A DNA stretch of 45,563 bases from a virus, in IMG/VR virus record IMGVR_UViG_3300036861_000371, positions 1 through 45,563 of that record. One strand, given 5' to 3'. A model generated the notes under the pieces. That model did no database searches. It had not been told where the DNA came from and saw nothing but the letters and a program-made list of their open reading frames with translations. This document shows, piece by piece, positions 1,708-41,737 of this stretch. How positions within the stretch are numbered: the stretch's first letter is position 1; each line of letters begins with the position of its first letter. Both the position numbers and the translations under genes were made by a program.

Positions 1708-1743
1708 GTGCTGAAGTATAGCACCGCTGCCGACGGTTGGCAA
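1708..1743 (-). promoter_or_regulatory. Predicted sigma70-type promoter P2
   Basis: On the minus strand TTGCCA (1743-1738) is followed after exactly 17 bases by TATACT (1720-1715). Transcription would start near 1708, about 20 bases before the ATG at 1687, and a GGAGAG site lies between. The 71-bp gap that holds it is one of the few real gaps in the gene chain. Confidence 0.75.
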
Positions 1744-2483: not shown

Positions 2484-2839
2484 AGCGGCCCTAGACGCCA
2501 GATGATGGTCTGGACCCCAGTCATCGGATTCGGCCGGCGACGCCCGGTGTCGTGTAATAGCCCGTGGTCCACGAGCTCCTTGCGCCGAGTGCCGATGCTC
2601 CGGTAGAGGCCCGGCCCGTAGCGTTCTCGGTAGAGGTCCACGAGCTCCGGGTCGGTCAGTTCCGCCCTCTCGCGGAACAGCGCCATGACCCGAGCGCGCA
2701 TCGAGGGCAGCGCCTTCGCCACCGCCTCCGCTCCAGCGTGCATGGTGTCCGAACCGTCGTGCCGCTTGCGCCCTATCGGCGACATGCCAGCGAGGGGACC
2801 CCGTTCTGGGGCGTCGAACAGCCCGGGCTGGTCGCTCAC
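2480..2839 (-). CDS. Winged-helix DNA-binding protein, 119 aa
   Basis: A 119-residue protein with a GTG start at 2839 (GTGA overlap with the replication initiator). Residues 45-118 look like a winged helix: a helix over the arginine-rich segment, a second helix from Leu-Thr-Asp-Pro-Glu-Leu, a recognition helix around Ile-Gly-Thr-Arg-Arg-Lys-Glu-Leu, then a beta wing ending in Ile-Ile-Trp-Arg-Leu. The N-terminal 40 residues look disordered. Next to an origin-carrying initiator it could be a helicase loader partner or a regulator, but no loader ATPase motif is present. Confidence 0.75.
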   Translation of the reverse strand: MSDQPGLFDAPERGPLAGMSPIGRKRHDGSDTMHAGAEAVAKALPSMRARVMALFRERAELTDPELVDLYRERYGPGLYRSIGTRRKELVDHGLLHDTGRRRPNPMTGVQTIIWRLGPL

Positions 2840-3609
2840 GTGAGGCCCGCCTGCCGGCGCTTCTCCTCACGCTTCGCGATGGCGATCTTGGTCCAGCCTT
2901 CCTCCTCGACCTCTTTCCTGGGCCGCTCGTCGATCAACCGGCGCTGCGGTTGACCGTTGCCGTGAGTTGCGGACTCGTCGTTCGGGTCGGACGCTGGTTT
3001 CTGGGGTAGAACGCCTCGGCGCAAAGCGCCCTCCACTGGCTGGATACCGTCGTTCTCTACTGCCTTTTGCCCCTGCTCGATAGAGCTAACTCTATTGCCT
3101 TCAGAGTCTAAGGCAGTAGAGGGCTGTTTCACAGCTTGAGAATCAAAGGCAGTAGAGAGAACCGTCGAAACGGTCCCCCGCACCGCCTCAAACGGTCTGC
3201 TGGAGCGTTTAAGATGGTCCCCCGCACCATCTGAAACGGTCTGTGGGAGCGGTTTACTTCGGAGGTGTGCGTCCAGCAGAGAACGCACCTGCTCGATCGC
3301 CGCAGGCGTCGGGCGCTCGGTGTGGAGGTGTGGCAGACCGGAAGGGAGAGTCGGACGCCAGCCCGGGCTCCGCTTCCCCGGGATTTTGATGCGCTCGTAG
3401 AAGCCGTAGGCGCCTAGGTGGGTGCGGTGGATTCGTACCGCGTTCTCGCTCATCCCGAGTCGCACGCCGAGTTGCGCATGTGTCAGCCAGCTGCCGACGC
3501 CCTGACGGTCCACCGTCCAGTCCTCCATCCAGATCAGTTTGGCCTCGGCCGGCAGGTCACGCGAAGCCCGGAAGGGCATGGTGTCGACTGCGGCGAGTCT
3601 CGCGGTCAC
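2836..3609 (-). CDS. Putative replication initiator (lambda O-like), origin inside gene
   Basis: A 257-residue protein with a GTG start at 3609 (GTGA overlap). Residues 20-75 resemble the N-terminal helix-turn-helix domain of phage initiators, with the turn around Leu-Gly-Met-Ser-Glu-Asn-Ala and the recognition helix after it. Residues 110-200 are low-complexity and hydrophilic, and their DNA carries four 22-bp repeats plus an AT-rich block (3055-3255). The C-terminus is Lys/Glu-rich and helical, where lambda O contacts the helicase loader. Known logic: lambda O binds iterons inside its own gene and recruits host DnaB. The absence of any phage polymerase or helicase fits such a host-dependent mode. 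The function is inferred from architecture, not from strong sequence identity. Confidence 0.7.
   Translation of the reverse strand: MTARLAAVDTMPFRASRDLPAEAKLIWMEDWTVDRQGVGSWLTHAQLGVRLGMSENAVRIHRTHLGAYGFYERIKIPGKRSPGWRPTLPSGLPHLHTERPTPAAIEQVRSLLDAHLRSKPLPQTVSDGAGDHLKRSSRPFEAVRGTVSTVLSTAFDSQAVKQPSTALDSEGNRVSSIEQGQKAVENDGIQPVEGALRRGVLPQKPASDPNDESATHGNGQPQRRLIDERPRKEVEEEGWTKIAIAKREEKRRQAGLT
3055..3158. repeat. AT-rich block with inverted pairs of an 11-12 bp repeat
   Basis: The motif CTCTACTGCCT occurs at 3055-3065, with one mismatch at 3090-3100, and in inverted orientation at 3111-3121 and 3147-3157. The order is forward, forward, reverse, reverse, with about 35 bases between members of each pair. 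The stretch is clearly richer in A and T than the rest of the window. It borders the 22-bp iterons and is a good candidate for the unwinding element of the origin. Confidence 0.7.
3168..3255. repeat. Four 22-bp dyad iterons, candidate replication origin
   Basis: Units begin at 3168, 3190, 3212 and 3234, a strict 22-bp period. Three begin AAACGGTC and the third AGATGGTC. Each unit is itself an imperfect inverted repeat; the third has perfect 7-base arms (AGATGGT and ACCATCT). In the first and third units the arms differ but still pair (CGGT/ACCG against TGGT/ACCA). The period is not a multiple of three, so the repeats cannot arise from a protein repeat. Their place inside the initiator gene mirrors lambda ori. 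Confidence 0.75.
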
Positions 3610-4129: not shown

Positions 4130-4654
4130 CTACAGGTTCAACTGCTCGCGGGCGCGTCGCATCGCCTCCGTGTCCTCGGTCCCGGCCACCGTCGCGCAGA
4201 CGGCGCACAAGTCCTCTTTGAAGGCCGGATCGTGGACCGTCTCTTTCCCGCAGCGCGCACACTTCCCTGCCGGCTTCGCGTGTGCGCCAAGCGCGGCCGG
4301 CTCGAGGAACGTCGCCGTCCCCTGGTAGCGATCGGTGTCCTGCGACCGCTCCACCTGCGCCTCGCCTTCCCACTGCTCGCAGCCGAGATGCTTCAGAAAC
4401 ACGCCCACTTCGACCTCGAAGCCCTCGGGCTTCACCATGCCCTGCCGAGCGATCCGCAGCTGCTTCTTGAAGGCGTGCGGGCCCTTGGGCACGACGCGCA
4501 TCCCGACGAGGGCGCCGTGGGGCAGCACGACCCAGGCCCAGGAGCCTTGCAGCTTCCAACTGCGCTCGCGCAGCCAGAGCCCGAGATCCTCAAGACGCTT
4601 CGTCCACTGGTGGTCCGGGTCGGCGGCCGTGAAGTCGGGATGTGGTTCAGACAT
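4130..4654 (-). CDS. Hypothetical protein with C-terminal zinc ribbon, 174 aa
   Basis: The start is the ATG at 4654, overlapping the upstream gene by 8 bases (ATGTCTGA). The N-terminal 120 residues are mixed alpha/beta with many Trp and charged residues. Residues 135-160 form a Cys-x2-Cys-Gly ... Cys-x2-Cys pair that would bind one zinc. The C-terminal helix is Arg/Glu-rich. The family is unknown to me. It is the last gene before the gap and hairpin at 3835-4129, so it may end an early transcription unit. Confidence 0.8.
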   Translation of the reverse strand: MSEPHPDFTAADPDHQWTKRLEDLGLWLRERSWKLQGSWAWVVLPHGALVGMRVVPKGPHAFKKQLRIARQGMVKPEGFEVEVGVFLKHLGCEQWEGEAQVERSQDTDRYQGTATFLEPAALGAHAKPAGKCARCGKETVHDPAFKEDLCAVCATVAGTEDTEAMRRAREQLNL

Positions 4655-5036
4655 CTTTCGCTCGCAGCGCCCGGGGCAGCACGTCGTCCAAGAGGCGCGT
4701 GACATGCGCGAGGTGCTCCTCGGTGCGCGTCAGATCGGCCTTGAAGCTCGGCCGCACTCCCTCGCGCCAGAGTTCGTCCATGAGCTCCTGCACGCCACCC
4801 TGCTCCTTTGCAAGAAAGATCGGGGGCTGTGGCGGGAAGAAACCGCCCGGCTCATCGTCGCGCACCTCGAGGGCCGTGACGGTGAGATGGCGCTTCACGT
4901 AGCCGACCGCTGGGTCGTGCTTCATCACGAACAGGAACAGGCCCCAGCCGTCGCTGGCCCAGTGCCGCCGGATCACAACGCGACCAGGCCCGATGGCCGA
5001 GAGGTCCGTGAAGGAGATGCGCCGGGGTTCGCTCAC
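4647..5036 (-). CDS. Conserved phage hypothetical protein, 129 aa
   Basis: The start is the GTG at 5036 (GTGA overlap). The C-terminal half has the segment Gln-Glu-Leu-Met-Asp-Glu-Leu-Trp followed by a Gly-x-Arg-Pro and a His-Leu helix. I recall this pattern from uncharacterised proteins of other proteobacterial phages (from memory). The N-terminal half looks like a beta-rich domain. No catalytic motif is evident. It sits among early genes downstream of the recombination pair. Confidence 0.78.
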   Translation of the reverse strand: MSEPRRISFTDLSAIGPGRVVIRRHWASDGWGLFLFVMKHDPAVGYVKRHLTVTALEVRDDEPGGFFPPQPPIFLAKEQGGVQELMDELWREGVRPSFKADLTRTEEHLAHVTRLLDDVLPRALRAKDV

Positions 5037-5754: not shown

Positions 5755-6777
5755 TCAGTCGTCGGCTTGGCCGCCAAACGGCAGCTCGCCACCCTTGCCC
5801 TTCTTGCTGGGCTTGGGCTCTGCCGCCGGGGACGGCGGCTCCGTGGCCGCCGGCGTCGCGCTGATCTTCTCCCGCAACGCATCCGTTCCCCGGTCGGCTT
5901 TCTTGAAGCCCCCGTTCTTCCCTTTCGTCTCGAGCACCTCGGGCCACGTCGTCTCGCCATCCCGCAGCGCCTGGTAGATCGTGCGCAAGAGGCTGATCTC
6001 GGCTGGCGTCGAGCCCTCGAGCTTGTGGCCCAGATACTCCTCGAGGTCCGTCGGCTCGACGCCGATCGAGAAGAACGCATCGCACACGCGCTTGCGGGCG
6101 CTGGCCGGGTCCTTGGCGTCCTCCTTCAGCAGCGTCTCGGGCACGAGCTCCATCGCTTCCTCGAGAATGTCCGAGGGGAGCAGCCGGAGCGCGCCGGTGC
6201 GAATCGCCTTCGACACCATCGCGGCCTGCTTCACGAGCAGGTCGTCCTCGGTGGCGCGGATCAGGTAGACGGTGACGCCCTTGGTGTTCTGGCGTCGGCC
6301 GATGACCTCCTGCCCCTCGCGCACCTTCTGGCGCTCGACCGTTTTCTCGACGGTGATGTCGTGCGGGTAGGACAGGTTCGACTCCAGGTCGGTGACGGTG
6401 ACGCGCACGATGCGGCGCTCCTCGTCGTCGAACACGACCATCGTCTCGACGTAGGCGTTGCCCATCGCCCGCAGCGACTCCTCGGCGAAGCGGATGGAGG
6501 GCCCGACGATGCTCTTGCCCCCGACGGGCTTCGAGTAGCGGGCGCCTTCGGCGAAGCCGAGCCGCTTGCAGGCTTGCAGGATGCGCAGCCGCACGGTGTC
6601 CCAGCTGCGCGGGTTTTTCATCGCGACGAGGTAGCGGGCTTCGACCGAGGCCTTGGCCTGCGCGGCCACGGCGACCGAGGCCGTCTCGACAACGAGCGGG
6701 GTGCGCTCGGGGACGGTGGCGAGGGCGCTGCCCGGTTCGGTGGGCAGGGGTACGGGTTCCTGCGTTGGGGCGACCAT
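5755..6777 (-). CDS. Putative single-strand annealing recombinase, 340 aa
   Basis: The start is the ATG at 6777 with GGAGG 7 bases upstream. Residues 1-45 are Pro/Ala-rich. Residues 50-240 form the conserved core, with Met-Lys-x-Pro-Arg-Ser then Gly-Pro-Ser-Ile-Arg-Phe-Ala-Glu and a beta-rich Val-Arg-Val-Thr-Val-Thr-Asp-Leu-Glu run. The last 50 residues are Lys/Pro/Ala-rich and end in a Phe-Gly-Gly acidic tail like that of single-strand binding proteins. I recall the Ser-Ile-Arg-x-Ala-Glu core from uncharacterised prophage proteins next to exonucleases. Pairing with a YqaJ exonuclease just upstream is the classic exonuclease plus annealing-protein arrangement. The role is therefore inferred mainly from context. 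Confidence 0.65.
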   Translation of the reverse strand: MVAPTQEPVPLPTEPGSALATVPERTPLVVETASVAVAAQAKASVEARYLVAMKNPRSWDTVRLRILQACKRLGFAEGARYSKPVGGKSIVGPSIRFAEESLRAMGNAYVETMVVFDDEERRIVRVTVTDLESNLSYPHDITVEKTVERQKVREGQEVIGRRQNTKGVTVYLIRATEDDLLVKQAAMVSKAIRTGALRLLPSDILEEAMELVPETLLKEDAKDPASARKRVCDAFFSIGVEPTDLEEYLGHKLEGSTPAEISLLRTIYQALRDGETTWPEVLETKGKNGGFKKADRGTDALREKISATPAATEPPSPAAEPKPSKKGKGGELPFGGQADD

Positions 6778-6793
6778 GCGGACCTCCAGAGAG

Positions 6794-7765
6794 TTAGTCG
6801 ACGAACCTGCTACGGAACACACGGGTCGCCGGGCGCACGAACGCCTTCACCGGCACCTCGTCCTGGTGCTTCCACGTCAGCGTGCCGAACGGCCCTTCGA
6901 CGCCCATGCGATCCGCGATGAACTCTTTCAGTTGCGCCTTGCGCTGCGACTCGCGGGCCTCGAGCGCCTTGATGTCGGCCTGAATCATCTGCAGGTCCCG
7001 CGCCCAGTCGTTGACGACGCTCGTCGCTTTCACGATTTCGCTCGTGTGGCCGGGGTAGGTGCGGAACAGGAAGCGGTGATCGGACTCGGCCCCGGTGAAG
7101 GGCGGATGTACGCCAGCTTGGACGTGGTTGAACCAGAAGGCGCGCACCGACTCGTAGAGGCCGGCGTGAATCGCGGCGTCGGCCCGGAGCGTGTACTCGC
7201 GGTAGTCGTTGCCGCCGAGCAGCACGGCCACGTCCCACCGCTTGAGGCCCGACACCATCATGCCCCAGTGACACTGCGCGGCGACGGCGTGCGGCACTTC
7301 GTCGGTGCCGTGCTCGCCCCAGGCGTCGCGATTGTAGAGGCCGCGGCTCTTGCACTCAAGACCCCACCGTTCGGCACCAAGGGCGTCGCGGATCAGGGCC
7401 GCAATGCCTTCGCCGACTTCCTCGCTTTGCGCCTCCTTGGACGGGTGCTGCAAGTTCATGCCGATCACAAGGCGATCCGGGGTAGCCAGCATCCACGGCT
7501 CCGGGCCTATCTCCGTGTCGCATGTGCGGAGCGTGGCCTCAGGGTGCCGCTCGGCGTACTCGTCGGCGATCACCGCCTCGAGCCGATGACCCCAGCGCGT
7601 GTAGCGGTTCTCCGGCATCGGCTCCGCTTGGCTGGTCTTGTCGAGAAACACGTCGAGCGCGGTGCGATAGGAGTCGAGCCCGAGGATCGCGGGCACTTCG
7701 CTGGCGCCGATGCCCTGCTTGCGCAGCGCCAGCTGTTCGGCGGTTAGGCCAAGGGACGTTGCCAT
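6794..7765 (-). CDS. YqaJ-type viral exonuclease
   Basis: A 323-residue protein of the YqaJ/lambda-exonuclease family, which resects double-stranded DNA ends for recombination. The motifs are in order: Gly-Ile-Gly-Ala-Ser-Glu at 18-23, Trp-Gly-His-Arg-Leu-Glu with Glu63, Ala-Thr-Pro-Asp with Asp97, and Leu-Glu-Cys-Lys with Glu137 and Lys139. The last three are the metal-binding and catalytic set of the fold. The C-terminus is a Lys/Glu coiled region followed by a beta-rich tail. The ATG at 7765 has an AGAGG ribosome site. A longer reading would run through the small gene and promoter upstream. Confidence 0.9.
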   Translation of the reverse strand: MATSLGLTAEQLALRKQGIGASEVPAILGLDSYRTALDVFLDKTSQAEPMPENRYTRWGHRLEAVIADEYAERHPEATLRTCDTEIGPEPWMLATPDRLVIGMNLQHPSKEAQSEEVGEGIAALIRDALGAERWGLECKSRGLYNRDAWGEHGTDEVPHAVAAQCHWGMMVSGLKRWDVAVLLGGNDYREYTLRADAAIHAGLYESVRAFWFNHVQAGVHPPFTGAESDHRFLFRTYPGHTSEIVKATSVVNDWARDLQMIQADIKALEARESQRKAQLKEFIADRMGVEGPFGTLTWKHQDEVPVKAFVRPATRVFRSRFVD

Positions 7766-7905
7766 TGGGGGGACCTCTGAGAGAGAGGAGGACGATGGAG
7801 CCGGGACCAGGCCCGCATCTTGTGCGTCTTGTTGAGGTACATCTTGCGGGCGTTTTTCGAGCGGACGAGCTTGCCGCAGCCACAGGCACAGAGACGCTTG
7901 TCCAT
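7744..7905 (-). CDS. Small Cys-rich basic protein, 53 aa, possibly leaderless
   Basis: The ATG at 7905 opens a 53-codon frame that begins with a Lys/Arg-rich Cys-x-Cys-x-Cys-Gly-Lys cluster at residues 6-12, then a basic Lys-Asn-Ala-Arg-Lys-Met-Tyr-Leu-Asn-Lys segment. This resembles the small Cys-Gly-Cys-Gly zinc proteins common in phages. No ribosome site is seen. The predicted start of promoter P1 falls on or one base before the A of the ATG, so the mRNA may be leaderless. Its last 21 bases overlap the exonuclease start. Confidence 0.6.
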   Translation of the reverse strand: MDKRLCACGCGKLVRSKNARKMYLNKTHKMRAWSRLHRPPLSQRSPQWQRPLA

Positions 7906-7940
7906 GCAGGGAAAGTACGCAGGTTGGCAACGGCTGTCAA
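7905..7940 (-). promoter_or_regulatory. Predicted early promoter P1
   Basis: Minus strand: a perfect TTGACA (7940-7935), exactly 17 bases, then TACTTT (7917-7912). Transcription would begin at about 7905 and read the exonuclease, annealing-protein and origin genes. GCCGTTGNCA occurs twice in tandem around the -35 box. An AT-rich phased block lies directly upstream. This is the best promoter in the window. Confidence 0.82.
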
Positions 7941-7943
7941 CGG

Positions 7944-7984
7944 CTAGACGTTCTATATATCAGTATATACCAGTATATGTCTAG
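7944..7984. repeat. AT-rich phased repeats within an inverted repeat (UP element or operator)
   Basis: CTAGAC (7944-7949) and GTCTAG (7979-7984) are perfect inverted arms. Between them, three 10-bp units (7951, 7961, 7971) repeat, two of them starting CAGTATAT. The 10-base step puts them on one face of the helix, just upstream of the P1 -35 box. It may be an UP element or a binding site for a regulator. The right arm contains the stop codon of the spanin-like gene. Confidence 0.65.
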
Positions 7985-8499
7985 AAGTGTCGCCCGCAGA
8001 CGACGGCCGCCCCGAGGCCGTGGCCGATCCCCTCGACGGCCCCGAGGCCCACCGTGCAGCCCCAGCGGCGCGGGCGCGACACCTTGAGGCCTTCCCGCAG
8101 CAGTGCCTGCAGGCTGTCACCCCGGCGCCGCTCGAGCTGCACTCGCTGCTCGCACAGGCTCACGGCCAGCATCAGAGTGTCGGTGGCGGCCATACAGAGG
8201 CCGAACCCCTCGCGTAGGTCCGCCAGGCCGGCGGCGGTGTCCCCGTGGACGAGCAGCGTCTCGCTTTGCAGGCGCAGGGTGTCGACCCGCACGAGGATCT
8301 TTGTGACGGTTTTCACTTGGACGTGCTGCACGAGCGCGAGGCTATCGGAGCGTAGGCGCCACACCTCAGCCAGCGCCAGCCCATCCTCGCTGCGCTGGCG
8401 CCACACGGCGAGCTGGTCCGACTGGTAGCGCGTGTACCACCAGCTGAGCCCCACGAGCACCACGAGGCCCCCCACCAGCAGCCGCCCGAGCCGACTCAT
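7981..8499 (-). CDS. Spanin-like membrane-anchored coiled-coil protein, 172 aa
   Basis: ATG at 8499. Residues 5-24 form one hydrophobic span (Leu-Leu-Val-Gly-Gly-Leu through Ser-Trp-Trp), followed by an Arg/Gln/Leu-rich region with long heptad-like stretches, then a Gly-rich hydrophobic C-terminus (145-172) with Trp-Gly-Cys and a final Cys. An inner-membrane anchor, a periplasmic coiled coil and a place just after the endolysin are the usual setting of phage spanins, which fuse inner and outer membranes in lysis. The start forms an ATGA overlap with the stop of the displaced endolysin 3' end (8496-8573), showing that the two were once coupled. A separate outer lipoprotein partner was not found. 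Confidence 0.6.
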   Translation of the reverse strand: MSRLGRLLVGGLVVLVGLSWWYTRYQSDQLAVWRQRSEDGLALAEVWRLRSDSLALVQHVQVKTVTKILVRVDTLRLQSETLLVHGDTAAGLADLREGFGLCMAATDTLMLAVSLCEQRVQLERRRGDSLQALLREGLKVSRPRRWGCTVGLGAVEGIGHGLGAAVVCGRHF

Positions 8500-8573: not shown

Positions 8574-9180
8574 TATATTGCAGTCATGGCATGGACACCA
8601 GAAAAAGCGCACGCCTACTACCTGGAACACAGAGAGCAGATCAAGCAGAAGGTGCGCGATCGGTATCGTGCTTTGGGGGAAACTGAATTGGCGCGTCGGC
8701 GTGAACTGCGTCTCAAGAACAGGGATCGAGTACTGGCGCAGAAACTCCGCTATCGAGAAACCCGCCGGGCCGAGCTGGTTCGGAAGGCCCTTGCCTGGAA
8801 ACAAGCCAATGCAGATCGATGGGCGCATAACATTGCTTTGGAACGGGCTCGCAGATTTGGCGTTGAGATCCGTCTCACAGCCAAAGCGTGGCTGGCCATT
8901 GTACAGCACTACAGAGGGCTGTGTGCTTACTGCGGGGGAGCTCCGCGCGTGAGGTGCGGCGTCGATCATTTGATCCCACTTGAACGAGGGGGACCGCACT
9001 CCATCGAGAACGTTCTTCCCGCCTGCGGTAAGTGCAACGCCAGCAAAAAGAACCGCACTCCACTGGAGTGGATTCTGAGTGGTGCGCCAAGATCTCATCT
9101 CACGTTCCGACTGCACGGGTCCATCGAATAAATCGATCCTCAGCTCGCATCGAACGGCGACGCGGATAACAACCCCACCC
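8574..9180. mobile_element. HNH homing-type insertion with replacement endolysin 3' end
   Basis: About 600 bp between the two homologous endolysin ends. It carries the only convincing plus-strand gene of the window (HNH endonuclease, 8586-9131) and, on the other strand, a complete 3' end for the endolysin. It is visibly richer in A/T than its flanks. The boundaries are set where the two endolysin ends stop matching, at the Gly-Trp-Gly codons; they are accurate to perhaps 10 bases. Confidence 0.7.
8586..9131 (+). CDS. HNH endonuclease (homing type)
   Basis: A 181-residue protein. Residues 1-95 are long, highly charged helices rich in Arg, Lys and Glu, probably DNA-binding. Residues 110-160 form a zinc-stabilised HNH nuclease: Cys-Ala-Tyr-Cys, then Val-Asp-His-Leu-Ile-Pro-Leu, Gly-Gly, Asn-Val-Leu-Pro-Ala-Cys and Lys-Cys-Asn-x3-Lys. 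The second Cys pair and the His and Asn of the beta-beta-alpha metal fold are all present. It runs against the direction of every other gene. A TATATT lies 7 bases before the start, but no good -35 box or ribosome site is seen. It overlaps the endolysin 3' end tail-to-tail by 32 bases. Confidence 0.92.
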   Translation: MAWTPEKAHAYYLEHREQIKQKVRDRYRALGETELARRRELRLKNRDRVLAQKLRYRETRRAELVRKALAWKQANADRWAHNIALERARRFGVEIRLTAKAWLAIVQHYRGLCAYCGGAPRVRCGVDHLIPLERGGPHSIENVLPACGKCNASKKNRTPLEWILSGAPRSHLTFRLHGSIE

Positions 9181-10302: not shown

Positions 10303-10579
10303 GCGCTCGCCGTTCCCGCACCTCTCGCGCTTGCCGCTGCCGCTCGGCTTCCTCGAGGCTCTCGAGGCGCAGGTGGAGGCGGTCCTGGTCGGCGCGGTAG
10401 ACCTTCAACTCCTCAAGGAGGTCGCCCTGGATGTCGGCGATCTTGCCGGCGATCCACTCGCGGTCGTTGAACGAGAGGCCGGTCACGAGGCGGCGGCGGG
10501 CGAACAGCGAGACGGTGACGGGCACCGCGACCACGACGGCGGCGAGCACGATCGCCCAGGGTAAAAGGAGCGGGGTCAT
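10280..10579 (-). CDS. Membrane-anchored coiled-coil protein, 99 aa
   Basis: ATG at 10579 in an ATGA overlap with the giant gene. Residues 4-27 are one hydrophobic span near the N-terminus. Residues 45-99 are a Glu/Arg/Leu-rich coiled coil. The layout is that of a small inner-membrane spanin or a holin accessory protein. A second spanin-like protein lies after the endolysin, so which of the two acts as the inner spanin cannot be decided from sequence. Confidence 0.65.
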   Translation of the reverse strand: MTPLLLPWAIVLAAVVVAVPVTVSLFARRRLVTGLSFNDREWIAGKIADIQGDLLEELKVYRADQDRLHLRLESLEEAERQRQAREVRERRAREAGHSE

Positions 10580-13500
10580 GGGCGCATCCGGGGTGCCGCC
10601 ATCCGCGGCGCCCGCGGCGCACTGCGCCCGCCGCCGCCCCCAGTCCGCTTGCGGCTCAGGGTGGAAATCCAGAGACGCTGTTCCTCGGGCGTGCCCAGCG
10701 CGTAGACCTGTTCCGCCTGCTCGAGGCTCAGCGCCTTGAAGCGCGTCATCAGCGGCGGCTCCTGCATCTTGCGCAGCGCGTCGGCGACTTGGCCGGAACG
10801 CAGCCCGAGGGCCTGCAACTGACGCTGGGCCTCTTGGTAGTCGATGTCGCCGTTGCGGAAGGCTTCCGTGACCCGGTATCGCTGGTCACCCATCTCGACT
10901 TCCTCGGGCGTGCGCTGACCACGTTGCCGGCGCGAAAACTCAGCCATGAGGTTCTGGGCCGGCGTCGCCACGAATTCACGAGGAGCGGGACTGATGCCCG
11001 CAAACCCCGGCAGCGTTCCCAGCACGCCGGTTTCACCACGGCGCCGCGCCTCGGCAATGTTCTGCAGCGAGATGGGTTCGTTGCTCTTGGCCGTGAACGC
11101 CGCGATCTGCTCAAGCACCGTCGACCAGTCGGCCGTCGGGTCGTATACCTGGTCGCCGTAGTACGTCCGGTTCGTCCCGAGCGCGTAGGCCCAGTGCAGC
11201 CCCGGGCTGAGTTTGTTGCCGAGCGTCTGCCACGGATGGTGCGACCAGGCGTAGAGGTCGTGCATAATGTAGCCCGGCAGCCGGTAGCGATTCTCGTTGC
11301 CGGAGCGGTCTTTGGTTCCATCCCGGAAGGCGAGGAAGTCCTTGCCCTCCGGCCACTCGCCAGTCAGCAGATAGGTCAGCAGGCCGTTGAAGATCGCGAG
11401 CCCGGCGAAGGCCGCCAACCAGTAGCGCAAGCTCGAGGTCCCGATCGGCGGCAGGTTCTTCGCCCCACCGACCGCCTGACGCGCCAACCGACCCGCTTGC
11501 CGCACGCCCCGCGCCGCCAGCACAAGCGTGCCGCCCGTCCACCCGGGCGCGAGGAACACGAACTGCGCGAGGTCCTTCGCCACGTTGTTGATGAAGTGGT
11601 TCTCGTACTGCACCTGGCCAAAACGGTAGTCCATTTCCTTCACGATGTCGCCCATGACGCGCCGGACTTCTTCGATCGGCGTCCCCGCCGGCAGCTTCCG
11701 CAACGCCCGCTCGGCCGCGATGTAGGTCGCGAACGCCTTCTGGTGCGGCACGTAGAAGCCCATCGTCGGGAAGGACGCCCCCTCGATCGCCGCCCACACG
11801 GCATCGAACGGCACGCGGACGGCCCCTGAGAGTCGGCGCCCGAGGCTCTCCCCGTGCAGGGCATCCCGCAGAGCGGCCTTGAAGCGCGCCCGACGGTCGC
11901 CAGCCCACAACTCGCTGCGCCGGGTCGAGCGGAATCCGCCCTGGATCATCGCGTCGAGCACGCGGGCGAGCTCCGGGTGGGTGCCGCGCCGCTCGTACTC
12001 CTCCATGATGCGACGGCCGAGGATCGGCCCGCGCACCGCCACAACGCCCGCCTGCGGCAAGCGACCGAGCGCCGCCTCCGAGAACATCGCCTCTTGGGCG
12101 ATCACCGTGCCGTGGAAGCCTGAGAGTCCGAGGATCATCTGCGCCGCCGCTTGGCCCGGAGCCATCAGGGCATCATAGATCGCGTGGCCCCGCAGCCCGC
12201 GGGACAGCGCGTTGTTCCAGATCGCGGCCGACTGTGGCGGCGCGTAGAAGTGGCCCATGATGCGTCGGCCAAAGACCGGGATTTTCTCACCCTCCACCGT
12301 CATCTCGCGCGGGCCGTAGATCGTGAAGGCCGGATCGCGTCCGTCGCCCACGCGCACCCACTCGCCCGTGGCGTCAGTCGGCGGCTCCTGGCCGAGCATC
12401 ACCTTCTTGGCCCGGCCAGCGCGGAGTTCCTCGAGCACCATGCGGCGTCCGTCGATCGCCCGCTGCATCTCGGCAAACTTCAGCAGCTGCGAGTCGACGA
12501 AGTTGTAGGTCAGCGGCACGAGGCCAGCGCGCAGGCCGTCGGCGAATGCGTCGAACGTCCGATGCTTCGCGAACGTTTTCGGCCCCTCCAGCGGTCGACG
12601 CCCGAACACCCGGGCAAGGAAAGACTGCTGCTGCTTCGGCGTCCCTTTCCAGTAGCGCCCGACGTAGTGCGCGATGGTGGGCTCGAGAATGCCGAGATCC
12701 TCGAGGACCGCCGAGTACTGGGCGGTCAGCGCATGGAAGGCGTCGATGGCTCCCGGGGGAATGCCGAGGCGCTGCGTCCGCAGCCGTGTGCCTGGCGCAC
12801 CCCAGTGCTCGACATCATCCCACAGCTGCGCCGCCTGGCGCTTGGTGAGCCTGCCGACGGCCTTGGAGAGGGCCCGGAGCGACTCTTGGGCGCGGGTCAG
12901 TTCCATCGCGCCCCGGGCGCGGCCGGCGCGGATCGTTCCGGCGGTGGCCTTGGCGACCTCGCCGAAGGACTCGGGGTTGAACACGGCGCGCAGGGCCTCG
13001 ACCACCCGCGTCACGGAGAGCGGCGCGCCCCGACCTTCCAATCCGGCCGCCTCAGGGAGCGGGAGGTCTTTGTCGAGCTCCTCGCCGGCCGAGCCGATAG
13101 GGCCCGTCTCGGGCGGGACGTTCGGTGGGCCGTAGGGGGTCGACGGCTCGAATACTTGGTGCGCGATGGCCGGCTTCGCTTCGGGGACGGGGCGGAACGC
13201 CCCCTGCTCATACGCAGACAGCCAGCGCGGACGCTGGGTCGCCGCGTCCTGCGCGACTTGGAACACGTCGTTCACGCCTCGCACCCCGCGCAGTACCGTC
13301 GTGGCGCGGTGGAGCACTTCGCCGGGACCCACGACGACGTAGACGTGATCGGCGGCGAGCGCCGCGATCCGCTCCGGCAACCAGCGGTCGATGTCCTTCA
13401 GTGCGGCCGTCGTGTGCGGCTCGAGCGCGATACTCACGGCCTGGCCGTTCATGTACAGCACGTCGAAGCGGCCCTCGGGCAGGATGCCGCTCGTCGCCAC

Positions 13501-16500
13501 GATCAGGTCGGCCACATCCTCGCTGCGGATGTATCGCTCACCGCTATAAGCGATACCGCCGGCCTTGGCCTCGGGGCCGTGGGTCGCCGTCCAGTCCTGC
13601 GGGTCCGGCTCGCGGGGCACGGTGACTGGGTGGAGCTCAAACTGGTCGCCCAAGTGCTTGATGTAGGTGCCGGTGATGTCGTCAGTGACGAGGTGGCCGC
13701 GGAGCCGGAGGCCTTCGTCAGTGAGGCGCTTGCCGACGTAGCCCGTGATGGCGATGTCGTCGTCCGAGACAGTCGGGTTCCCGCTCGGGTGGTTGTGAAT
13801 CAACTCGGCCTCGGGCGCGCCGATTTCCTTCATGCGAGCGATGAGCACGTCGGCGAAGTCCTCCCGTATCTTCACCGCGTTGATCGCCCCGCTGGAATGC
13901 ATCTGGTGCTCGAGCACGGTGCCGTCAGATCCGCGCAAGGCGAAGTGGAATCGCTCGGTCGCCGGGCTGCGGAACGGCCACATGAGGCCGTGCAGTTCCT
14001 GCGGGGTCTGGGGGTTCTGGCCCTTGATCATCACCCAAGCTTTCGGCTCCGCCGCACGAGCCACCGCCGCCTCGCGGGCGACGGGATCGAGCGGCACGGG
14101 GCGCGGCTCACCGAACAACTCCAGCTGCGCCATGCGGCCCGCTTCGCGCACCACCTCGAGCGCCGCGGCCTTCCCCTGCTCGGCACTGCCGAAGGTGATC
14201 GCCGTATGCTGGCCGAGGTTCGCCTCGATCCCTGCGTAAGGTTTCGGCTCGAGCAGGGTATGCGCCCCGCCCTGATGGAGTTCCTGCCGGAACGCCCGGG
14301 TGGCCGCCACCTGCTGTTCCGGTCCTCCGGTGTAGGTGCGGAACGGGATGCCGCGGCGCCGGAGAATGTCGGTCACGGCCGGGGGGGCGTCCTCGGGAAT
14401 CACGGCCCCCGCGAATTCGTCGAAGTGGACGGGGCGCGGCGGCTTGCCCTCGAAGTACGAGACCGGCATGTCCATGATCGCCGAGGCGATCGTCACGCCA
14501 TCGTCGACGAGCTCGGCCGGCACGTCCTGAAACCCCTCGCGCTCCAACTCGCGACGCAGGGCGGTCGCCGTGCGTCCGCGCTTCATAGCCGCAGCTCCCC
14601 AGCGCCCGATGGCGCGATGCACGGCGTCGAGCCCTTCCCAGACCTGGCCGAAGGCCCCGCCTCGATAGGCGTCCGGGCGGTAATACTGGACGATGGCCGT
14701 CCGCCACTCGTCCTGCGCATCCTCGAACAGCTTCCGCGCCGCCTCGACTTCGGCCTTCGGCCGCACGCCCGCCTCGACCGCGTTGCGCAGCCAGGCCAGG
14801 TCGGGGATGCGTCTCGCCATCGCCGCCCGGGCAGCCCCCGGCCCGAACGTCATGCCCCCCTCTTTCCCGGGGACGACATCGGTCGCCGCCGCGACATTCT
14901 CCAAGGTGTATGGCACCTTGCGGCGCCCCAGTCGCACGGACGGCGTGCCAAGCAACGGTTTGACCTGCTCGTCGAGCCAGTCGTGGAAGCCCGTCTCGCT
15001 GGGCGTCGCCTTCTTCAGCACCTTCTCCGTGCGGCCCCGATCCACTTCTCGTGTGCCGATGCGCGCCTGGTCGTCCATGATGCGATCGCCATGCGCGAAG
15101 TGGAGTTCCGGCTCCGGTCCTTCCTCGAACATGTTCTCCATCGCGCCGTGCCGGGCGATCGCTCGGTGCTCGGGGTCCTTGTACTCTTGGACGAGATGCT
15201 GCTCGACCGCCTCACGAGCGGCTGCGCTGAGAGCCCGCCAGTACTCGTCGCCCGGGCGCGCTCCGTGGTCGACACCACGCTCGGCGAAGAAATCACGCAG
15301 TGCCGGCGCTCTCGAAAGCGGATAGCGCAGCGGCGTGGCCCGCATCCGCGGCTTCGCGGCGATCCCCTGCTCTGCGAGATAAAGGGCGCGGGCTGCGAGC
15401 GAGCGACGCAGCAGACTCTGCACTTCGGCGGGTCGGGGCCCCGTCGCCCGGTTGACGAGTTCGTCCCAGACCTGCGAAACGACGTGCCGCTCGTCGTAAA
15501 TCTCCGTGCCGGGCCGCAGGCGGTCGACGAATCGCTGCGCCACGGCGCTGCGCACCTTCGGGTACTCGGGTGGCGGATTGCGGCCGGTGTAGGCGTCCGA
15601 GGGATAGATCGGCGTCTGCGTCGGATCGGCGAGTTCGCGCTTGCCGATGAGCGTGATGGGACCGTAGCCCTCGAGGCCCTGCTGCTCGGGCACGATGGCA
15701 AGCGACGGCGCGGGCAGTCCGCCGAGACGGTCCGCGGCAGTTAGGTTCTCCGCGCTCAGGTTGTGCAAGGCAGACAGGCGTGGTGCCGGCACATCGGCGA
15801 CTGATTCGGGTTCCGCTGTGGGCGGTTGCGGCTCGCCCACCTGGCCCCGTCGCCCGAGTTCGGCCTGCAGCGCCGCCACGTCTCGGCGGACCTTCTCGGC
15901 ATACGGCTGCATCTCGGCAGGCCACTGCGGACTCTCGGCGAGTGCCGCCCGCGCCCTGTCGAGTAGCCGCTGCAGCGATGCCGGTTCCTCGAGACGCAAG
16001 TTGACGCCGGGCATACTCGGCAGCGGGACCGCCCCGTAGGCTTGCCGCTTCGGCTCGCCGGTCTGCATCCCCCGGCGTTCCTCGGTGCGCTCGTACAGAT
16101 CGTCGATGGTGACGCCGCGCCGCTGGAGCTCCTGCTCGACCTCGCCCATCAGCCGGCCCGCCGTCTTGACGGTGCCGATCGCTCGCCCGGCCTTGCCCGT
16201 CACGGCGGTGCCGCTCACCACGCCCTCGCTGCCCGAATCGCCGCCGCCCGTCTTGCGGCGCGCCCAGCCCATGATCCCCTTGCCCGCTACCTGCTGTGCC
16301 GCATCAATGCGGTCGACGAGCTCCAGCCAGCGGGCCTCGAGGTCAGCGTTCGACATCTTCGCGTACTTGGGGTTCGACTCCGGCACCGCTTCGGGGTGCG
16401 GACCACGACCACGCTTCGGCTTGCGACCACCGGCGGGTTCCTGCGGTTCGGTGCGGAGCGGCTCCGGGGCCGGGGCTTCAGTCGCCTCAACTGGTACAAC

Positions 16501-18276
16501 TGGTACAGGCGGTACAGCTGGTACGGTCGGCCGGGCGGCTGGCGCTGGAGCCGCCGAGGCGCGATAGCGTGGATTGCCTTCTGGGTCGTAGGACCGCTCG
16601 ACCAGGCCTGCCTCGACGAGTCGCCCGATCGCGTCTCTCGGCTCCGTCGTGGCGGGACCACGACCACGGGGCGTCCGGCGGTAGGAGCGAACAATCTCGG
16701 GAATCGTCAGCCCGGGGCGTCGCTCAATGATCTGCAGCAAGTGCGTGGCGAGTGGCCCGACCTGCTTGTTGAGTTCGGCCTCACGCTCGCCGCGTGTCAC
16801 TTGCTGCCCCGGTGCGGGCGCTGCCTGCTCCTCTGCCTGGCGCAGTCGGTCGGCCGTCGTCTCGATGCGCGCCGGCGGCGGGGCGACAACCTCCGGCGTC
16901 GGCTCGGGCGGCACCCGGGCCGCGCCACCCGTCTCGCGTCGGAGAAACTCCTCGGGTGTCGGCGTCGGCGGCACCCGCTCCCGTTCCTGGCGCGCCGCAA
17001 AACTCTGCTCGTAAGGCGGCGTCTGGGAGAGTTCGGGATGGGTCGGACCGGGCGGCAGACCCCGGGGCGAAATCGGGGTTTCGACACGGGGGGCAGGCAC
17101 GACCGCCTGAGGCGGCGTTTGCGGCCTCGGAGCCGGTTGGGGCCGTTCTGGCACAGGGACTGGCTCCGGCGTCGCTGGGGCTGGAGCGGGCGCAGGCGCT
17201 GGCCGTTCTGGCGGTGGTTGGGCAGGCTGGCGTGGCTGGGCGGTCGCGGCCTGCCGCGCCGCTGCCCGCCGACGGTCCTCCTCGGCCCGGATCTCCCGCT
17301 CAGCTCGCGCCTGCTCGGCCTGGCGCGCCGCCCGTTCGGCCCGCGCCGACGGTTTGGCTCCCAGTTCCCGTAGCGCCGCCTCCTTGGCTTCGTTGGCCCG
17401 CAAAAAGTCGAGCGAGGTCTGGAGCTGGTCAGCCGACCCGCCGCGCCGCACCCGTTCTTCGGCCGGCACGTCGGGGTGGGTTCGCTGCGCCGCTTCCACG
17501 TAGGCGCGCTGCACGTCCTCCACCGTGGCCGTGGTACGGTCCAACCCGAGGTCGGCGAAGGGGTCGGTGCCTGGTGCCGGACGGGGCGGCTCAGGCCGTG
17601 GCGCGCCCAGCCGCGGACGCGCTGGCTCCGGCCCCCGACCGAGTTGCGGCGGCGCTGCTGCGGCAGGGGTGCGACCCGGCACCAGGTCCCGCAGTCCGTA
17701 GGCCAGCATCGCCGACTGCCCGAACGCCTCCGGGTCGCCGAAGCCGGCGCGCTCGAGCGTCGGGAACGGATTGAGTCCCTGCAGAAACGTCGCGCCGGCC
17801 GACGGCTCCGGTGGCTGGCCTGCAGCCGCTCGAGCGACGGCTTGGCGCGCCATTTCCTCGCGGTAGGCCGGGCCGGTGAAGCCGCTCCCCACCGCCTCCA
17901 AGCCCCCACGCACAAAGCCCGGGATGCCGCGGATGAGTTCCAGCGCGCCCAACGCGCCACCGACGGCCGCCGTCCGAGGTGAGGGATGATAGACGGGCCC
18001 GCCGATGCGGCCAGCGCGGATCGGCTCGGCGGTGGCGATGTCCTGGGCGGCTTCGTTGGCTGGGTAGAACACGCCGCGCACGTTCTGGTACTGCGGCTCG
18101 GCCATCTCACCGACGGCGGCGTGCCGCGCCATGAGCAGCTGGTCGAGCCGCTGCCGGACGCGATCTAGCGGCGGGCTGAGTTCGGGAGCGGCCTCGGGTT
18201 CGAGTCCTGCGAGCGAGTCGAGTTGCTGGCGGACACGATCGAGCGACGGGCGGACGGGCGCGACGGGAGGCGCCAC
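10576..18276 (-). CDS. Giant virion-associated polyvalent protein with J-domain and JAMM domain, 2,566 aa
   Basis: The largest gene, 17 percent of the genome. The start is the GTG at 18276. In order: two short Leu-Asp-Arg-Val-Arg-Gln repeats (11-20, 36-45); a Gly-rich hydrophobic segment (103-135); a J-domain-like helix with His-Pro-Asp at 267-269; a charged coiled coil (305-345); Pro-rich linkers to about 500; a winged-helix-like region (505-575); a JAMM metalloprotease signature with His1494, His1496, Ser1504 and Asp1507 in a RadC-like His-Asn-His-Pro-Ser-Gly setting; and helical regions with two hydrophobic stretches (about 2234-2256 and 2284-2306). Its place between tail and lysis genes fits proteins ejected into the host with DNA. 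Polyvalent proteins of this kind often carry several enzymatic domains against host defence (family knowledge). The specific roles are inference. Confidence 0.8.
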   Translation of the reverse strand: MAPPVAPVRPSLDRVRQQLDSLAGLEPEAAPELSPPLDRVRQRLDQLLMARHAAVGEMAEPQYQNVRGVFYPANEAAQDIATAEPIRAGRIGGPVYHPSPRTAAVGGALGALELIRGIPGFVRGGLEAVGSGFTGPAYREEMARQAVARAAAGQPPEPSAGATFLQGLNPFPTLERAGFGDPEAFGQSAMLAYGLRDLVPGRTPAAAAPPQLGRGPEPARPRLGAPRPEPPRPAPGTDPFADLGLDRTTATVEDVQRAYVEAAQRTHPDVPAEERVRRGGSADQLQTSLDFLRANEAKEAALRELGAKPSARAERAARQAEQARAEREIRAEEDRRRAAARQAATAQPRQPAQPPPERPAPAPAPAPATPEPVPVPERPQPAPRPQTPPQAVVPAPRVETPISPRGLPPGPTHPELSQTPPYEQSFAARQERERVPPTPTPEEFLRRETGGAARVPPEPTPEVVAPPPARIETTADRLRQAEEQAAPAPGQQVTRGEREAELNKQVGPLATHLLQIIERRPGLTIPEIVRSYRRTPRGRGPATTEPRDAIGRLVEAGLVERSYDPEGNPRYRASAAPAPAARPTVPAVPPVPVVPVEATEAPAPEPLRTEPQEPAGGRKPKRGRGPHPEAVPESNPKYAKMSNADLEARWLELVDRIDAAQQVAGKGIMGWARRKTGGGDSGSEGVVSGTAVTGKAGRAIGTVKTAGRLMGEVEQELQRRGVTIDDLYERTEERRGMQTGEPKRQAYGAVPLPSMPGVNLRLEEPASLQRLLDRARAALAESPQWPAEMQPYAEKVRRDVAALQAELGRRGQVGEPQPPTAEPESVADVPAPRLSALHNLSAENLTAADRLGGLPAPSLAIVPEQQGLEGYGPITLIGKRELADPTQTPIYPSDAYTGRNPPPEYPKVRSAVAQRFVDRLRPGTEIYDERHVVSQVWDELVNRATGPRPAEVQSLLRRSLAARALYLAEQGIAAKPRMRATPLRYPLSRAPALRDFFAERGVDHGARPGDEYWRALSAAAREAVEQHLVQEYKDPEHRAIARHGAMENMFEEGPEPELHFAHGDRIMDDQARIGTREVDRGRTEKVLKKATPSETGFHDWLDEQVKPLLGTPSVRLGRRKVPYTLENVAAATDVVPGKEGGMTFGPGAARAAMARRIPDLAWLRNAVEAGVRPKAEVEAARKLFEDAQDEWRTAIVQYYRPDAYRGGAFGQVWEGLDAVHRAIGRWGAAAMKRGRTATALRRELEREGFQDVPAELVDDGVTIASAIMDMPVSYFEGKPPRPVHFDEFAGAVIPEDAPPAVTDILRRRGIPFRTYTGGPEQQVAATRAFRQELHQGGAHTLLEPKPYAGIEANLGQHTAITFGSAEQGKAAALEVVREAGRMAQLELFGEPRPVPLDPVAREAAVARAAEPKAWVMIKGQNPQTPQELHGLMWPFRSPATERFHFALRGSDGTVLEHQMHSSGAINAVKIREDFADVLIARMKEIGAPEAELIHNHPSGNPTVSDDDIAITGYVGKRLTDEGLRLRGHLVTDDITGTYIKHLGDQFELHPVTVPREPDPQDWTATHGPEAKAGGIAYSGERYIRSEDVADLIVATSGILPEGRFDVLYMNGQAVSIALEPHTTAALKDIDRWLPERIAALAADHVYVVVGPGEVLHRATTVLRGVRGVNDVFQVAQDAATQRPRWLSAYEQGAFRPVPEAKPAIAHQVFEPSTPYGPPNVPPETGPIGSAGEELDKDLPLPEAAGLEGRGAPLSVTRVVEALRAVFNPESFGEVAKATAGTIRAGRARGAMELTRAQESLRALSKAVGRLTKRQAAQLWDDVEHWGAPGTRLRTQRLGIPPGAIDAFHALTAQYSAVLEDLGILEPTIAHYVGRYWKGTPKQQQSFLARVFGRRPLEGPKTFAKHRTFDAFADGLRAGLVPLTYNFVDSQLLKFAEMQRAIDGRRMVLEELRAGRAKKVMLGQEPPTDATGEWVRVGDGRDPAFTIYGPREMTVEGEKIPVFGRRIMGHFYAPPQSAAIWNNALSRGLRGHAIYDALMAPGQAAAQMILGLSGFHGTVIAQEAMFSEAALGRLPQAGVVAVRGPILGRRIMEEYERRGTHPELARVLDAMIQGGFRSTRRSELWAGDRRARFKAALRDALHGESLGRRLSGAVRVPFDAVWAAIEGASFPTMGFYVPHQKAFATYIAAERALRKLPAGTPIEEVRRVMGDIVKEMDYRFGQVQYENHFINNVAKDLAQFVFLAPGWTGGTLVLAARGVRQAGRLARQAVGGAKNLPPIGTSSLRYWLAAFAGLAIFNGLLTYLLTGEWPEGKDFLAFRDGTKDRSGNENRYRLPGYIMHDLYAWSHHPWQTLGNKLSPGLHWAYALGTNRTYYGDQVYDPTADWSTVLEQIAAFTAKSNEPISLQNIAEARRRGETGVLGTLPGFAGISPAPREFVATPAQNLMAEFSRRQRGQRTPEEVEMGDQRYRVTEAFRNGDIDYQEAQRQLQALGLRSGQVADALRKMQEPPLMTRFKALSLEQAEQVYALGTPEEQRLWISTLSRKRTGGGGGRSAPRAPRMAAPRMRP

Positions 18277-41701: not shown

Positions 41702-41737
41702 AGGAACGAAACTACGAATCGCCGTGGCAAGCGTCAA
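41702..41737 (-). promoter_or_regulatory. Predicted promoter P3 upstream of terL
   Basis: Minus strand: TTGACG (41737-41732), 17 bases, TAGTTT (41714-41709), with a start near 41702. This is weaker than P1 but has the same spacing. It would drive the terminase, head and tail genes. Confidence 0.6.

Follow-up and report, generated by a model that had tools for sequence, protein, structure and literature searches.

A probable sigma70-type early promoter with a phased AT-rich element at the lysis/early recombination junction of an uncultured caudate phage

The virus record IMGVR_UViG_3300036861_000371 from IMG/VR (45,563 nucleotides, 68% GC) was analyzed over its full length, which we refer to as the window. 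Nearly all of its genes lie on the minus strand, and between the last lysis gene and the first early genes is a short gap that includes both promoter-like hexamers and the most AT-rich stretch of the window. This locus raises the question of what starts early transcription in this phage, and of what the AT-rich repeat next to that start contributes.

A promoter-like sequence between lysis and early recombination genes

Genes in the window are ordered as methyltransferase, terminase, portal, capsid, a 2566-aa protein, CHAP endolysin, small membrane protein, the gap, a 53-aa open reading frame (ORF), YqaJ, and phrog_3657. The last gene before the gap (7981..8499, minus strand) follows the endolysin and encodes a small membrane-anchored protein, which may be spanin-like on the two grounds of its position and an N-terminal hydrophobic stretch, and whose C-terminus is related to positions 2429-3085 of L008, one of the related loci described below. 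On the other side, a YqaJ/RecE-like exonuclease gene (6794..7765, minus strand; PF09588, E = 3e-21; phrog_434, E = 3e-64) belongs to an early recombination module, and it is followed by the phrog_3657 gene (5755..6822, minus strand) both here and in relatives. The gene order on its two sides thus identifies the 76-bp gap as a late/early junction. Elsewhere in the window, the 2566-aa protein (10576-18276, minus strand) carries PBECR5 nuclease-like and RadC domains and is probably a polyvalent protein. An HNH/endonuclease VII-like gene on the plus strand (8586-9131), flanked by the genes of the CHAP endolysin and the small membrane protein, is probably a mobile homing gene, and ORF 2836-3609 includes an AT-richer stretch (3060-3200) with repeated CTCTACTGCCTT words. 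A search of the window for tRNA genes found none.

Read directly along the minus strand, the junction has the order CTAGACATATACTGGTATATACTGATATATAGAACGTCTAGCCG-TTGACA-GCCGTTGCCAACCTGCG-TACTTT-CCCTGC-ATG, and the positions at which a first-pass annotation of this DNA had placed TTGACA, a 17-bp spacer, TACTTT, and the ATG are right. Its description of this promoter as near consensus holds for the -35 hexamer TTGACA (7935..7940, minus strand), which matches the consensus at 6/6 positions and is the sole minus-strand copy (three in the whole window), and for the spacer, whose 17 bp fall inside the 16-18 range of sigma70. The same description is overstated for the -10 hexamer TACTTT (7912..7917, minus strand), which matches TATAAT at 3/6 positions, with A2 and T6 kept. 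A cut-off of at least 4/6 for the -10 is common rather than an absolute requirement; TACTTT falls short of it, and a consensus scan at this threshold accordingly omits the site. Six nucleotides, CCCTGC, separate the -10 from the ATG (7905-7903).

We also scored the site with a weight matrix built on general E. coli-like frequencies, which may not suit the sigma factor of the host. On this E. coli-like scale TTGACA-17-TACTTT reaches 11.5 and ranks third on the minus strand; by chance, such a score is expected 0.125 times per window with both strands counted, and ~0.0001 times in the 76-bp gap. Nine matrix matches exceed 8.7, and all of them run in the direction of the genes, with none on the plus strand. 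The site had also been proposed as the master early promoter, a rank that is less well supported, given other sites in the window. The best sigma70-type site by the matrix is TTGCCA-17-TATACT with a TG extended -10 (1715-1743, minus strand), followed by the Shine-Dalgarno (SD) sequence GGAGAG and an ATG at 1687, and another candidate, TTGACG-17-TAGTTT (41709-41737, minus strand), lies in the ~500-bp gap upstream of the terminase gene, where it may be a late promoter. A 10-mer, GTTGCCAACC, is common to the sites at 7931 and 1744 (~2% by chance), which is a weak hint of common regulation. Among early promoters, that at 7905 is probably the first, and not demonstrably the only or the strongest one.

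The same slot in related phages

Searches of IMG/VR with YqaJ and phrog_3657 retrieved four related loci (L002, L008, L017, and L018) along with more distant ones. In all four, a divergently encoded HTH protein and a control region occupy the same slot, after a lysis gene and before YqaJ and phrog_3657, and this control region is repeat-bearing in every compared relative. Phage_CI_repr was detected above cut-off in L002, with weaker HTH matches in the other three; the repressors of L002, L017, and L018 are mutually related, and that of L002 is also related to that of L008. The small first gene of each of the four loci differs in sequence from the 53-aa ORF of the window. Facing the early genes are TTGACG-17-TACATT in L017 (matrix score 11.9), TTGACA-17-CATTGT in L008 (9.75), and TTGCGG-17-TACTTT in L018 (5.3), the last with the same -10 as the window at the aligned place, while the L002 slot yielded no convincing promoter by the matrix. 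The relatives' repressor, operator, and early promoter thus occupy the slot in which the window has its promoter. This synteny gives good support to the earlier proposal of an early promoter, and by position the window promoter would be the equivalent of those of the relatives.

The promoter sequence of the window itself was found in no close relative. Among annotated phages the window has no nucleotide relatives, and among genome contigs one distant relative only. Within the retrieved set, the two flanks of the slot in L017 and L018 are essentially 100% identical, against 52-54% identity over the DNA-binding part of the repressor and the operator/promoter (L017 4301-4487), a difference that looks like an immunity-region swap. 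In a further locus, L007, positions 4600-4692 resemble a tRNA in its 3' part (GGTTCGACTCCCCTCGGCTCCA); they lie immediately upstream of the small gene that precedes YqaJ.

The slot between lysis and early recombination genes, in the window as in its relatives, has the position of a lambda-type immunity region. The relatives display the rest of such a region as well: their HTH repressor gene is divergently oriented, the intergenic region carries repeats, an early promoter points toward a small first gene, and near-identical phages show a region swap. The window, unlike a lambda-type immunity region, has its AT repeat upstream of the -35, and its 76-bp gap contains no gene, so that the adjacent repressor is absent. 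No HTH_3 or CI-type repressor is recognizable anywhere in the record, and comparison with the relatives' repressors revealed no remnant in the window, with chance matches only. Neither a tyrosine integrase nor a serine resolvase was found in the window. However, the absence of repressor and integrase is no proof of a virulent phage, as the contig may be incomplete.

The phased AT-rich element upstream of the -35

The AT-rich element adjoining the promoter (7944..7984, minus strand), a candidate UP element or operator, has TATATA-type repeats phased at 10 bp and is bounded by CTAGAC/GTCTAG. The 41-mer at 7945-7985 has the lowest GC content of any in the window (29% vs 68%), and it holds six of the eight ATATA matches of the window and all of its TATATA matches (both strands counted). 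The 10-bp phasing reported in the first-pass annotation is real by a shuffle test, since the 15 of 20 lag-10 matches were reached in 0 of 3000 dinucleotide shuffles; when any lag of 7-13 is allowed, comparable periodicity occurs in 1% of shuffles. The 6-bp inverted arms described alongside it, CTAGAC/GTCTAG, are exact, yet at chance level (15% of shuffles). No second copy of the element was found within the window, and an exact search for the repeat in viral contigs returned no match. A terminator or hairpin reading of the repeat was rejected, its folding being no better than that of shuffles.

Relative to a start at 7905, the element spans -39 to -79 and covers the UP-element zone at about -38 to -59. 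In the UP elements of strong promoters, to which alpha-CTD binds, AT-rich DNA likewise adjoins the -35, here from -39. Standard UP elements consist of A- and T-tracts and end short of -79, whereas the repeat in the window is an alternating TATATA in 10-bp phase that extends to -79. This position would suit a UP element and an operator alike, without favoring either.

In the latter case, the element would bind an unrecognized repressor or activator, whose gene would lie at another place in the phage, outside the contig, or in the host, and the promoter would still be a regulated switch. We regard this as a serious possibility, if at somewhat less than even odds, and one that is compatible with the best explanation given below, from which it differs solely in what the AT element does. 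An operator is suggested by imperfect palindromes that overlap and by 10-bp direct repeats, and likewise by the repeats in the control regions of the relatives and the presence of GTTGCCAACC in the 1743 promoter too. On the other hand, the record has no HTH_3 or CI repressor to act on it, the AT repeats are placed upstream of the -35 and not across the promoter, and the element is single-copy in the window. A second repeat is placed differently: the direct repeat CCGTTGACAG/CCGTTGCCAA, which ends in GTTGCCAAC (7923..7943, minus strand; 10-bp spacing, 8/10 matches), covers the -35 and the spacer and is itself a possible operator. This CCGTTGMCA repeat thus overlaps the -35, upstream of which the AT repeat sits.

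Transcription start, first gene, and overall reading

From its spacing, as the seventh base after the -10 hexamer, the predicted transcription start is the A of the ATG at 7905 (minus strand). The first gene downstream, a 53-aa Cys-rich ORF (MDKRLCACGCGKLVRSK...; 7744..7905, minus strand) with a CxCGCGK motif, starts at this same base, and no Shine-Dalgarno sequence was found before its ATG, in agreement with the small Cys-rich gene without a ribosome site that had been noted there. Missing SD sequences are, however, common in this record, with none at 13 of the 29 listed start sites (this one among them). Family-profile and relative searches returned no family match and no significant relative for the 53-aa ORF, and an AlphaFold model made without an alignment is of low confidence (pLDDT 69, pTM 0.32).

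With this geometry, a leaderless first mRNA is plausible, although we put it forward tentatively, as a prediction from spacing. For leaderless early phage transcripts, the one directly relevant case found in the literature is the telomere phage PY54: RACE in its immB region identified a single leaderless mRNA species for cI and another for cro, both starting at the AUG (PMC4488713), so that a leaderless first early gene is possible. PY54, however, has a CI/Cro pair there, whereas the early genes of the window begin with a Cys-rich ORF that has no relatives and whose leaderless start is a prediction. The leaderless lambda cI mRNA from PRM likewise has its AUG at +1, as predicted here, but serves repressor maintenance, whereas the transcript in the window would be early lytic.

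Alternatively, transcription may start inside the AT element, from a weaker candidate, TAGACA-18-TATATA (7954..7983, minus strand), acting as the real or a tandem promoter, in which case the leader would be ~40 nt long and the first mRNA not leaderless. This candidate scores 8.73 with an extended -10 TG, and the first genes of all four relatives do carry a leader and an SD-like stretch. We nonetheless consider it unlikely: its score is clearly below that of TTGACA-17-TACTTT and of a kind expected ~4 times per window by chance, its TATATA -10 is without the T at position 6, and the leader it would produce would likewise be without an SD sequence. Further down the scale of probability, the AT repeat may serve as an origin of replication or melt the DNA for some other purpose, with the promoter secondary. 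The unique, AT-rich, and helically phased repeats of an otherwise GC-rich genome, located beside recombination genes, would fit this improbable scenario, but a GC-skew inflection is absent, no recognized replication initiator is nearby, and the location directly upstream of the -35 offers a simpler account. Least probable of all is a chance promoter look-alike in the intergenic gap, for which the weak -10 by consensus and the site numbers of consensus scans, not far above chance across the window, might speak, but which the tiny expectation for the gap under the E. coli-like matrix and the synteny with the relatives' control regions argue against.

Overall, we favor, with a probability of roughly 0.7, a sigma70-type promoter that starts the early genes of a caudate phage from the lysis/early recombination junction, as read from its sequence and gene context. 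Host RNA polymerase would bind TTGACA-17-TACTTT and start transcription at 7905 or within 1-2 bases, and the leftward transcript would include the 53-aa ORF, the YqaJ exonuclease, phrog_3657, and the following genes. The slot contains no repressor gene, and the control DNA is reduced to the 76-bp gap with its AT-rich element. From its place directly before the -35, this element most likely makes the promoter stronger through alpha-CTD/UP contact or binds a regulator. A bolder scenario, in which a CI-type repressor was lost from the slot and the early promoter was re-armed by the phased TATATA array to yield a constitutively strong leaderless transcript, amounting to a natural lysogeny-to-lytic conversion confined to this locus, strikes us as distinctly unlikely. 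The promoter is probably of a familiar, ordinary type, and its twist would lie in the AT-rich phased repeat, which is real and unexplained, and in the missing repressor.

For this uncultured phage group, early control is thereby assigned to a defined locus. Two near-identical relatives appear to show this slot swapped as an immunity cassette, and the slot is thus a concrete place to ask how lysogeny is acquired or lost in such phages.
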